This document shows, piece after piece, positions 11,557 through 63,141 of a stretch of 64,000 bases of DNA. The translations under genes and the position numbers were made by a program. The notes under the pieces were generated by a model. The model did no database searches. It worked only from the letters and a program-made list of their open reading frames with translations, and was not told the DNA's origin. The stretch is from Hymenobacter perfusus. Lineage in GTDB: Bacteria; Bacteroidota; Bacteroidia; Cytophagales; Hymenobacteraceae. The stretch spans positions 496,001-560,000 of the forward strand of contig NZ_RWIU01000002.1 in NCBI RefSeq assembly GCF_003944765.1, read 5' to 3'. Each line of letters opens with the position of its first letter. Within the stretch, counting starts at the first letter, position 1.

Positions 11557-12495
11557 ATGTCCCTCTGCCTCGTCATCGACGAAATGCACCCCAGCCTCCC
11601 TGAGTACCTGGAGCCGCTGGGTGTTACGCTGCACTACCGGCCCGAGCTGAAGGCCGCCGACGTGCCCGCCGCGCTGGCCGCGCACCCCTACGACGGGCTG
11701 CTGGTGCGCTCTAAGCTGCGCGTGACGCGGGAGCTGCTGGCCCACGGCCCGCACCTGCGCTACGTGGGCCGGGCCGGGGCCGGCGTCGATAACATTGACG
11801 AAGCCGCCCTGGCTGAAGCCAACGTAACGCTGCTCAACGCCCCCGAGGGCAACCGCGACGCGGTGGGCGAGTACGCCGTGGGGCTGCTGCTGGCGCTGCT
11901 ACGCAATATTACCCGCGCCGACCAGGAGGTGCGCCAGGGCCAGTGGCGGCGCGAGGCGAACCGGGGTGAGGAAATCGGGGGCAAAACCATCGGGCTGCTG
12001 GGCTACGGGCACATGGGCCGCGCCTTCGCTAAGCGCCTCCAGGCCTTCGACTGCACCGTACTGGCTCACGACCACGACCCGCGCGTGGAGCCCAACCACC
12101 ACGCCACGCTGGTAACGCTGGCCGAGCTGCAGGCGCGGGCTGAGGTGCTGAGCCTGCACATTCCGTACTCGGCGGCCAACCACCACTTTGTGAACGAGGA
12201 GCTGCTGGCCGGGTTCCGGAACCCGTTGTGGCTGCTGAATACGGCCCGGGGCGAGGTGCTCGACCACGCCGCCGTGGTGCAGCGCCTGCAAACCGGCCAG
12301 CTGCGCGGCGCAGCGTTGGATGTGCTCGAAAACGAGAAGCTCATCACCCTAAGCCCCGAACAGCAAACCCGCTACGACTACCTGCGCACGGCCCCGAACG
12401 TGGTTCTCTCGCCCCACGTGGGCGGCTGGAGCTTCCAGAGCTACGAGCGCATCAACCGGGTGCTGGCCGAGAAGCTACGGGTGTTTCTGGGGTAG
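11557..12495 (+). CDS. D-isomer-specific 2-hydroxyacid dehydrogenase (phosphoglycerate dehydrogenase-like)
   Basis: The 312-residue protein has the two-domain D-2-hydroxyacid dehydrogenase layout: an outer catalytic domain split around an NAD-binding Rossmann domain (KTIGLLGYGHMGRAF). The catalytic Arg (LNTARGEV), Glu (DVLENE) and His (LSPHVGGW) are all present. Stretches such as GRAGAGVDNIDE and NAPEGNRDAVGEYAVG resemble 3-phosphoglycerate dehydrogenase, so serine synthesis is plausible, but there is no C-terminal ACT domain and no serC or serB neighbour. Start at the ATG at 11557; a TTG six bases earlier is less likely. Confidence 0.9.
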   Translation: MSLCLVIDEMHPSLPEYLEPLGVTLHYRPELKAADVPAALAAHPYDGLLVRSKLRVTRELLAHGPHLRYVGRAGAGVDNIDEAALAEANVTLLNAPEGNRDAVGEYAVGLLLALLRNITRADQEVRQGQWRREANRGEEIGGKTIGLLGYGHMGRAFAKRLQAFDCTVLAHDHDPRVEPNHHATLVTLAELQARAEVLSLHIPYSAANHHFVNEELLAGFRNPLWLLNTARGEVLDHAAVVQRLQTGQLRGAALDVLENEKLITLSPEQQTRYDYLRTAPNVVLSPHVGGWSFQSYERINRVLAEKLRVFLG

Positions 12496-12544
12496 CTCCG
12501 GGGGAATGACGAGGGGCTTTCTGGCCGTTTTCCCCAACGTTTCG

Positions 12545-12552
12545 TATATTTG
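12545..12552 (+). promoter_or_regulatory. -7 promoter box of greA
   Basis: TATATTTG matches TAnnTTTG exactly. It lies 50 bases after the upstream gene and 16 bases before the terminator stem at 12569. No good -33 TTTG at 19 bases. Confidence 0.6.
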
Positions 12553-12568
12553 CCTAAACCTGTTCCGG

Positions 12569-12608
12569 GGAGAACGGCCAGCCGCGCTGGCCGTTCTCCT
12601 TGTTTTTT
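12569..12608 (+). terminator. Intrinsic terminator inside the greA leader
   Basis: A perfect 13-base-pair stem (GGAGAACGGCCAG with its inverse) around loop CCGCG, followed by TTGTTTTTT. It lies between the greA -7 box and the greA ATG at 12628. It may also end read-through from the upstream dehydrogenase gene. Confidence 0.9.
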
Positions 12609-12627
12609 GAGCTTACAGCACCCCACC

Positions 12628-13101
12628 ATGTCTACCATCAACTACTATACTCCCGAAGGTCTTCAGAAGCTGAAGGATGAGCTCCAGGACCTCAAAATCC
12701 GTGGCCGCGCCAAAGCCGCCGACGACCTGCGCGAAGCCCGCGACAAAGGCGACCTGAGCGAAAACGCGGAGTACGATGCCGCCAAGGAAGCCCAGGGGCT
12801 GTTGGAGTTGAAAATCTCCAAGCTGGAGGAAGTAGTCGGCAACGCCCGCCTGCTCGATGAGACGAACCTGGACCTGACCAAGGTGCTCATCATGAGCAAG
12901 GTGAAGCTCAAGAACCTGAAGAACAACATGGTGCTCGACTACACGCTGGTTGCCGAGGAAGAGGCCAACCTGGCCGCCGGTAAAATCTCCGTGAAGTCGC
13001 CCATCGGCAAAGGCCTGCTTGGCAAATCAGCCGGCGACACGGCTGAAATTACTGTGCCGGCTGGCAAACTGCAGTTTGAAATCCTGGAAATCAGCCGCTA
13101 G
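12628..13101 (+). CDS. greA: Transcription elongation factor GreA
   Basis: GreA enters the secondary channel of RNA polymerase and stimulates cleavage of backtracked RNA. The start at 12628 (MSTINYYTPEGLQKLKDEL) gives 157 residues, the normal length. The N-terminal coiled coil carries the acidic tip motif GDLSENAEYDAAKEA with the catalytic Asp and Glu; the C-terminal FKBP-like domain runs from about residue 80. The leader holds a promoter box and a perfect terminator hairpin, so most starts from that promoter could end after about 50 bases, an arrangement known from the Escherichia coli greA leader (GraL RNAs). Confidence 0.97.
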   Translation: MSTINYYTPEGLQKLKDELQDLKIRGRAKAADDLREARDKGDLSENAEYDAAKEAQGLLELKISKLEEVVGNARLLDETNLDLTKVLIMSKVKLKNLKNNMVLDYTLVAEEEANLAAGKISVKSPIGKGLLGKSAGDTAEITVPAGKLQFEILEISR

Positions 13102-13102
13102 C

Positions 13103-13256
13103 GGTGAGTTTGTGAAATTGTGAGTTGGTGAATTTCATCAACTACTTGAAAGGGCGGAGCCACTGGCTTCGCTCTTTTGCGTTTTGCCCCGTACTTTGGC
13201 TGACCCTGCCCGTGGTCTTTCACCACTTCACCACTTCACAATTTCACCACTACACC
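13103..13256. repeat. Octad-periodic inverted tract between greA and the HIT gene
   Basis: Left arm 13103-13134: GGTGAGTT, TGTGAAAT, TGTGAGTT, GGTGAATT. Right arm 13217-13256: CTTTCACC, ACTTCACC, ACTTCACA, ATTTCACC, ACTACACC. The period is 8 here. The left arm begins one base after the greA stop and the right arm ends two bases before the HIT start. Confidence 0.8.
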
Positions 13257-13258
13257 GT

Positions 13259-14161
13259 ATGCCTTCCATTTTCTCCCGCATCGTGTCCGGCGAGCTGCCC
13301 GCTTTTAAGGTGGCCGAAGACGAGCATCACCTGGCCTTTCTGGATATTACGCCGCTGGTGGAAGGCCACACGCTGGTTATTCCCAAGCGCGAAGTCGATT
13401 ACATTTTTGATATGCCGCCGGCCGAGCTGGCCGCCCTGCACTTGTTTGCTCAGCGCGTGGCCCGGGGCGTGAAAGCCGCCGTGCCCTGCAAGCGGGTAGG
13501 AGTGGCCGTTATCGGGCTGGAAGTGCCCCACGCGCATATTCACCTCATTCCGATGAACAACGTGTCGGATATGAACTTCGCCAACCCCAAGATTAAGGTA
13601 CCCGAGCAGCGCCAGAACCAGCTGGCCGCCGCCATTGGGGCGCAGGTGCCGGCCGTGGTGAGCGGCACCGCCGCCGCCCCCACCGACCCGCGCGACACCA
13701 AAGGCGGCCGCGAAACCATGGAGGAATCGGAGCCCCAGGCCAAAACAACCAAACCTGCCGCCGCTGCCAACGACCCGGCCCTGGCCCAACTGCGCGAGTT
13801 GACCAAGGGTCTCGTGTACATGAGCGAGGGCGACGCACCGCTGGAGCCCGTAAGCTTCCCGGCTCCCGCCGGCGGCCTCACCGATGCGGCCCTGGCCCAG
13901 CTGGCCGGCCTGCCCGCCGATACTCAGGTGGAAAAGCAGGAGCTGACCTACTTCCTGCGCAACCACACCGCCGACAACGGTGTGCTGGGCAACCCCGAAC
14001 TGGCCAACCGTTTCAAGGCCCTGCAAATGTACCTGAAACAGGAGCTTAGCGGCACGCAGGTGTACCGCTTCGGCACGGGCCCGCAAGTGCTGGTGCTGGT
14101 GTTGGGCGAGGGAGAAGGCGGCAAGCTCCATGGCTTCAAAACCGTGCTGACGGAAACCTAA
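13259..14161 (+). CDS. HIT-family hydrolase fused to a NuiA-like nuclease-inhibitor domain
   Basis: This 300-residue protein has two parts. Residues 1-130 are a HIT protein (nucleotidyl hydrolase/transferase superfamily) with the histidine triad HAHIH at 91-95 and family stretches HTLVIPKREVDYIF and CKRVGVAVIGLEVPHAH. Residues 131-175 are a low-complexity Ala/Pro/Thr linker. Residues 176-300 resemble the NuiA nuclease A inhibitor family: GLVYMSEGDAPLEPVSFPAP, LAGLPADTQVE, a helix ending LKQELSGTQVYRFG and a final FKTVLTET. HIT proteins of this type are normally about 130 residues and end before the linker. I infer an in-frame fusion; an internal ATG near 13718 could also make the inhibitor domain alone. 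A NucA-type nuclease gene lies at 16974-18440. Confidence 0.85.
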   Translation: MPSIFSRIVSGELPAFKVAEDEHHLAFLDITPLVEGHTLVIPKREVDYIFDMPPAELAALHLFAQRVARGVKAAVPCKRVGVAVIGLEVPHAHIHLIPMNNVSDMNFANPKIKVPEQRQNQLAAAIGAQVPAVVSGTAAAPTDPRDTKGGRETMEESEPQAKTTKPAAAANDPALAQLRELTKGLVYMSEGDAPLEPVSFPAPAGGLTDAALAQLAGLPADTQVEKQELTYFLRNHTADNGVLGNPELANRFKALQMYLKQELSGTQVYRFGTGPQVLVLVLGEGEGGKLHGFKTVLTET

Positions 14162-16734: not shown

Positions 16735-16777
16735 AAAAAAACGCCCATTCCACCCCCAGGGAAGGGCAGAATGGGCG
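16735..16777 (-). terminator. Intrinsic terminator in the leader of the MFS gene
   Basis: Minus strand: CGCCCATTC and GAATGGGCG pair, with further C/G pairing inside the loop, followed by seven T. It ends 22 bases before the MFS start codon and lies downstream of a TACCTTTG box. Confidence 0.87.
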
Positions 16778-53472: not shown

Positions 53473-53588
53473 CAAGTGAAATAGTGAAACGGGGAAATAG
53501 TGGGTTTACGCGCCGGATGGCGCAACTTGCGCAACCTGCACCGTGCAGCAGGCAACCTGCTGCTTATTTGTCCCGCTATTCCTCCCGT
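53473..53588. repeat. Octad-periodic inverted tract between divergent membrane genes
   Basis: Left arm 53473-53504: CAAGTGAA, ATAGTGAA, ACGGGGAA, ATAGTGGG. Right arm 53564-53587: TTATTTGT, CCCGCTAT, TCCTCCCG, ending two bases before the GTG at 53590. Period 8. The GAAATAG/CTATT words are inverse. Confidence 0.6.
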
Positions 53589-63001: not shown

Positions 63002-63141
63002 GGGGAAGTTGTGAAGGGTGAGGTTGTGAACGTTCTTGGATTCGGATTCTACGCAAACCAACTCAGCTATGGCCAGCGTGTTCACAACTTTGCCCGTTAC
63101 CACTTCACAATTTCACCTTTCACCTTTCACAACTTCACCTA
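63002..63141. repeat. Heptad-periodic inverted tract between rsgA and the dehydrogenase gene
   Basis: Left arm 63002-63029: GGGGAAG, TTGTGAA, GGGTGAG, GTTGTGA. Right arm 63099-63140: ACCACTT, CACAATT, TCACCTT, TCACCTT, TCACAAC, TTCACCT, running into the rsgA stop (63139-63141). The left arm touches the dehydrogenase start. Confidence 0.82.

Follow-up and report, generated by a model that had tools for sequence, protein, structure and literature searches.

What does the hairpin in front of greA do in Hymenobacter perfusus? The window (the whole 64,000-nucleotide stretch of DNA that was analysed) contains a greA gene whose start is preceded by a promoter box, a strong hairpin and a run of T. 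An earlier note on this DNA had seen there the same layout as in the Escherichia coli greA leader, which yields the short GraL RNAs, and had suggested either convergent control or an ancient feature. We asked whether the elements are real and conserved, whether they belong to greA, and how they might act.

Anatomy of the greA leader and its conservation in Hymenobacter

The gene was located at 12628..13101 on the + strand, with its ATG at 12628 as previously noted. Its protein scored 156 bits against TIGR01462 (cut-off 139) and matched both Gre Pfam domains, PF01272 and PF03449. A second, diverged Gre-like gene (L002 / G000:C11:81793-82164) showed about 31% identity and stayed below the TIGR01462 cut-off; weak second Gre-like matches were found in many genomes of the genus. 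Upstream of greA, in the same orientation, lies a D-2-hydroxyacid dehydrogenase gene, whose end at 12495 is 70 nt short of the stem. The gene after greA (13259-14161) encodes a HIT domain (PF01230) with a NuiA-like (nuclease A inhibitor) domain behind it (PF07924), a pairing that struck us as unusual.

The sequence TATATTTG, a match to the -7 box TAnnTTTG of Bacteroidota sigma-A promoters, lies at 12545-12552 on the + strand, exactly as the earlier note had it. No other exact copy occurs in the window; since 0.51 copies were expected, the box alone is without significance. Downstream on the same strand, the 5' arm GGAGAACGGCCAGC (12569-12582) and the 3' arm GCTGGCCGTTCTCC (12586-12599) form 14 perfect pairs around a 3-nt loop, a structure supported by the pairing and by the genus alignment. 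The terminator scan and the fold extended the hairpin to 17 pairs, including two G-U pairs, at 12566-12602. It is followed by a split U-tract, TTGTTTTTT (12600-12608, + strand), in which the T-run 12603-12608 comes after TTG; the tract TTGTTTTTTG overlaps the foot of the 17-bp extended stem. The earlier note had described a perfect 13-base-pair terminator at 12569-12608. The hairpin stands, with 14 pairs instead of 13, and that span takes in the hairpin plus the T-run.

The fold of 12556-12640 reached -34.2 kcal/mol against -20.1 (sd 2.7) for shuffled sequences (z -5.2). Terminator-like sites as such were not in excess in a 10 kb scan (8 found, 9.9 expected), and the greA-leader stem was the longest among the eight. 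Another strong terminator-like hairpin, with 16 pairs and then TTTTTTT, was seen at window positions 16742-16777 on the - strand. An 8-nt periodic repeat (GTGANNTN / TTCACNAN) was also observed at 13104-13135 and 13218-13256, and again at 53474-53488 and 63104-63140. The copies on either side of the greA 3' terminator form an imperfect inverted repeat of 34 nt (79%). With one mismatch allowed, TTCACNANTTCACNA occurred 8 times in the window where 0.05 were expected, and similar repeat runs were seen by eye in many Hymenobacter greA loci.

All 120 genomes of the genus contained greA (G107 only in part). We compared the leaders of 70 of them, made up of 30 loci from the greA search and 40 picked by hand for spread. 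A perfect TAnnTTTG (TATATTTG or TATCTTTG), a hairpin and a T-run were present in 70/70. In every leader the box stood 13-17 nt ahead of GGAGAACGG, a sequence within the 5' arm, which was followed by its complement and then by the T-run. The earlier note had proposed a comparison of greA leaders for a conserved promoter-terminator pair and had held that absence of the hairpin in close relatives would speak against its idea; the pair proved to be conserved throughout the 70, the hairpin was present and the idea survived. An early non-T interrupted the U-tract in all 70 leaders (CTTGTTTTTT, CTTGCTTTTT, CTTATTTTTT, TTTCTTTTTT and similar forms).

The 70 leaders gave 54 distinct core sequences (alignment A1). 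All 755 countable cells of the 14-bp stem formed standard pairs, and nine stem pairs were invariant. Double-sided changes occupied 51 cells at three pairs against 15.8 in shuffles, and none of 500 shuffles, which ignore the relatedness of the sequences, reached 51. Two other measures did not stand out: the count of stem pairs showing a double-sided change (3 against 1.6, with 27/500 shuffles at least as high) and the number of pair types in the stem (8 against 8.0). The lowest stem pairs are optional, because pairing fell to 93.7% of cells once the three lower pairs were included.

Predicted start site and room for an antiterminator

The TAnnTTTG box of Flavobacterium psychrophilum was mapped at -12 to -5 (PMC9723704). 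With the -7 box placed in the same way, +1 would be A12557, the stem would begin at +10 to +13 and the T-run would end at +52. The predicted short leader RNA (12557-12608, + strand, ending inside the T-run) would be 47-52 nt long, in agreement with the length of about 50 bases given in the earlier note. Its fold has an energy of -32.9 kcal/mol (z -6.6 against shuffles).

The putative start is separated from the stem by 9-12 nt, and close spacing was also found in other leaders. From the -7 box to the start of the stem we measured 10-16 nt across the 70 genus leaders. The 29 order leaders had a median distance of 10 (from -1 to 46) and the 11 phylum leaders one of 7 (from 1 to 32). Box and stem adjoin each other in leaders of Pontibacter. 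Because the stem would begin about ten bases into the transcript, an antiterminator, a leader peptide or an aptamer does not fit; given A12557 as the start, a classical antiterminator has no transcribed room before the stem. Curated Rfam covariance models gave no leader or riboswitch match at gathering score anywhere in the window.

One segment, 12521-12535 (+ strand), is complementary to the 5' arm at 14/15 positions and was considered as an antiterminator. We rejected it: it lies upstream of the promoter box, outside the conserved element, and is specific to the window, being found in 1/70 genus leaders. The other 69 reached at most 10/15 complementarity. Even in a longer transcript, the terminator stays in the minimum-energy fold despite this segment.

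A stem at or near the predicted 5' end, as seen in many leaders, together with a very stable fold, would also suit a hairpin that keeps greA mRNA from being degraded and has a T-run beside it only by chance. Such protection needs neither a U-tract nor a fixed spacing between stem and T-run, whereas the T-run stood behind the stem in 70/70 genus leaders, and we consider this reading very unlikely. The counts outside the genus given below do not bear on it, as the detector required a T-run there.

Distribution of the hairpin and its assignment to greA

Leaders outside the genus were searched with a detector that required a stem followed by at least 6 T in 8, at a score threshold of 15 that we set ourselves. 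The samples were 20 of 84 genomes of other genera in the family, 40 of 109 genomes of other families in the order and 20 of 133 other genomes of the phylum, all picked by hand for spread. A leader terminator scoring at least 15 was found in 70/70 leaders of the genus, 20/20 of the family, 33/40 of the order and 13/20 of the rest of the phylum, against 0.2-0.3 per set expected from shuffles. Some leaders had been picked because R1, a covariance model of the leader element, matched them (L095 and L096 in the family, L114-L116 in the order), and L102 in the order was a known R1 match; without leaders having known R1 matches the counts were 18/18 for the family and 29/36 for the order. The scored hairpin was absent from 7/40 order leaders and 7/20 phylum leaders. 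Three of those missed (L122, L148 and L149) have imperfect hairpins with T-runs by eye and were counted as misses; leader L125 was only 125 bases long. Regardless of score, a hairpin was found in 35/40 order and 16/20 phylum leaders.

The core AACGGY...RCCGTT was present in 70/70 genus, 20/20 family and 27/40 order leaders and in 0/20 phylum leaders. The layout thus recurs in the phylum sample and the sequence is common only within the order. This bears on the idea that the short RNA acts in trans, the invariant GGAGAACGG/CCGTTCTCC being kept for base-pairing or for protein binding. The nine pairs invariant in 54 distinct sequences are in keeping with it. So is a comparison with the best hairpin after greA: at 30 genus loci, GGAGAACGG was found in 30/30 leader hairpins and the 3' hairpin core GGGCGAA in 18/30. 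The conserved part would be locked in a very stable stem, however, where it makes a poor seed, and outside the order the core was not found (0/20) while the layout persists. We therefore regard a role in trans as quite unlikely.

Two further motifs were noted near the T-run. TTTT[AT]?ATTG, mostly at its end, occurred in 10/40 order leaders (L099, L100, L109, L112, L113, L121, L123, L132, L134 and L136) against 1.3 in shuffled sequences, and in 0/20 family and 0/20 phylum leaders; it is possibly an extra element at the release site. A second form, ATTGTAY after the T-run, was present in 5/20 family and 4/40 order leaders (order shuffles, 1.5).

Promoter and hairpin were counted as coupled when TAnnTTTG ended within about 18 nt of the stem. 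Among leaders with a hairpin, a perfect box was found in 70/70 (genus), 7/20 (family), 14/35 (order) and 7/16 (phylum), against 0.7, 0.55, 0.93 and 0.48 in shuffles. With one mismatch allowed, the counts rose to 70/70, 17/20, 20/35 and 10/16, against 9.4, 3.5, 9.9 and 5.0. Loose matches alone are weak evidence, because shuffles reach 9.9/35 in the order and 5.0/16 in the phylum. In many leaders outside the genus the box is only loosely matched, which counts against the explanation that we prefer.

Run on the genome that holds the window, R1 had a single strong place, at the greA leader (E 1.3e-19; the palindrome also matched on its reverse strand, E 4.8e-7). A second copy of the element in this genome was rejected, the next match having an E of only 0.015. 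In the order, R1 matched 42/194 genomes at E up to 0.01; these weak matches are not taken as evidence because many fall at places other than greA (for example in G226). An exact promoter-box and hairpin pattern was also scanned in one genome per species across 84,980 species. It gave 83 stretches, all re-found by script, with 52 directly before greA and 31 elsewhere. The distance from CCGTTCT to the start was 29-40 nt in the 52 before greA; among the matches listed (49 of the 52), the genera were Hymenobacter, Pontibacter and Solirubrum. The other 31 were scattered over Firmicutes, cyanobacteria, proteobacteria and Chloroflexota-like bacteria, and one was labelled 'uncultured bacterium'.

The hairpin could instead be the 3' terminator of the dehydrogenase gene upstream, unrelated to greA. 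That neighbour is codirectional in the window, and terminators are common before genes with codirectional neighbours. As a control we took one locus containing greA, about 20 kb long, from each of 20 genomes, added the window, and compared genes with an upstream gap of at least 60 nt. Gene starts were set mechanically at the first ATG; this rule hid the hairpin of two greA genes and perhaps some hairpins of other genes. A terminator stood ahead of greA in 17/21 cases and ahead of other genes in 24/237; the greA rate is not independent, because we already knew the leaders when the 20 loci were selected, and the leader counts above are the better measure for greA; the rate for other genes is unaffected. 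Two of the four greA misses (L251 and L262) have the hairpin once the start is taken from the protein match. With a codirectional upstream gene, the counts were 11/13 for greA and 21/141 for other genes; with a divergent one, they were 6/8 and 3/96 (Fisher p 1.5e-6). Where the upstream gene is divergent, a terminator that follows a promoter box can act only on a transcript into greA. In addition, the hairpin is downstream of the conserved box, and by eye the sequence above the box shows no conservation in the genus except for the adjoining 10-20 bases, which close relatives share. On the divergent loci we rejected the terminator of the upstream gene, a reading that we consider highly improbable for this hairpin.

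Comparison with GraL and proposed mechanism

Roughly two thirds of the greA transcripts of E. coli end at the terminator in the leader, and imprecise termination there yields GraL, a set of RNAs of 37-59 nt (PMC6829880). A role in trans, with nudE, was reported for GraL. GreA increases GraL at the expense of readthrough, loss of GreA brings GraL down about fourfold, and repression fails with cleavage-dead GreA; the feedback works in vivo and was not reproduced in vitro (PMC6829880). The Hymenobacter leaders share with this system an intrinsic terminator between the greA promoter (here the -7 box only) and greA, in 70/70 leaders, where the terminator is a stem plus U-tract, here recognized by sequence only. 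They also share a hairpin near the start site and an RNA of about 50 nt, which is predicted here and falls within the 37-59 nt of GraL. They differ in position: in E. coli the hairpin is found 103-131 nt ahead of the ATG, with a published distance of 19 nt from the start site (PMC6829880), whereas here the hairpin is 29-59 nt before the ATG and would begin at about +10 to +13. The likeness claimed in the earlier note was thus borne out, with a promoter-hairpin pair that is conserved.

R1 gave no match at the greA leader of MG1655 when run on that region (L159, E up to 1). Its sole match was at 1654-1712 on the + strand (E 0.36); the leader is on the - strand, upstream of 2216. By these comparisons, the leader is GraL-like in kind, without sequence relation to GraL. 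As to the alternative of a convergent or an ancient feature, the terminator looks old within Bacteroidota because 13/20 leaders outside the order have it; a link to E. coli found no support, R1 having no match at the leader. The non-greA matches of the exact pattern scan gave, as a by-product, a set outside Bacteroidota: from 26 named loci 25 genomes were searched, 20 of which had greA (17 of the 20 labelled as Firmicutes groups). The same detector, which found the E. coli terminator, found none before the best greA in these 20 genomes (0/20); among second greA copies a leader terminator was seen in 1/6. Independent origins of the Bacteroidota and E. coli terminators are favoured, only weakly, because the set is small and greA attenuators are in print for bacilli and Clostridia.

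Naville and Gautheret (2010) reported greA-leader attenuators in Proteobacteria, bacilli and Clostridia from comparative genomics, with greA/rnk ranked seventh among gene families (PMC2965389). The 5' terminators before greA are common to their cases and ours. Their cases each had a clear antiterminator (PMC2965389), whereas here there would be no transcribed room for one, given A12557 as the start. The main text of that paper, its supplement aside, contains no word starting 'Bacteroid' or 'Cytophag'. The F. psychrophilum study deals with the same phylum and the same promoter type and described 64 structured 5' regions and leader-peptide attenuation (PMC9723704); greA is not named in its main text, the supplementary table aside. 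Among the literature matches listed, judged by titles and the opening lines of abstracts, none dealt with a greA leader in Bacteroidota, which speaks only weakly against an earlier description; an entry in a supplementary table is possible.

We propose, with a probability of about 0.7, that this is a promoter-proximal, terminator-only leader of the GraL kind that keeps greA mRNA down, perhaps with GreA itself as the agent. RNA polymerase would start at about A12557, form the hairpin almost at once (+10 to +13) and pause between about +47 and +52, within the U-tract. Some complexes would release an RNA of about 50 nt and the remainder would read on into greA, so that greA mRNA is capped. With no room for an antiterminator or a sensor domain, the decision would have to lie with the polymerase and its factors. 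GreA competes with other factors for the secondary channel of the polymerase. We favour it as the factor because of the E. coli precedent: abundant GreA would most likely raise termination, a negative feedback like that of GraL, and its cleavage of backtracked RNA at the U-tract pause would restore a termination-competent complex. It counts against this picture that a GC-rich stem of 17 bp could end almost every transcript. We assume partial termination because GreA is needed and the U-tract is split, and the split tract could itself be the source of partial termination.

The same anatomy would serve a constitutive throttle or insulator that fixes greA at a low level and blocks readthrough from upstream, with no response to GreA or to any other signal. 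Neither a sensor nor an antiterminator is present, and the stem starts close behind the -7 box in genus, order and phylum leaders. Against a fixed throttle it may be argued that a weak promoter achieves an equal effect without waste; moreover, the nine invariant pairs and the AACGGY/RCCGTT core in 27/40 order leaders suggest a constraint beyond pairing. We consider the throttle unlikely. Our proposal can also be widened to a ligand-free switch throughout Bacteroidota, in which a bare terminator has the polymerase as its sensor and GreA cleavage sets readthrough, E. coli having arrived at the same independently. We hold this wider version tentatively and lean somewhat against it.

For the biology of the group, the finding means that an RNA element is common to most order leaders sampled, with covariation in the genus and no Rfam match in the window. 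A conserved greA-leader terminator makes GreA feedback testable in a second, distant bacterial group. The version in this lineage is leaner, with the stem near the 5' end and without an antiterminator, and isolates the minimal element. With such a minimal leader one can ask directly whether GreA activity is read out by a terminator on its own.
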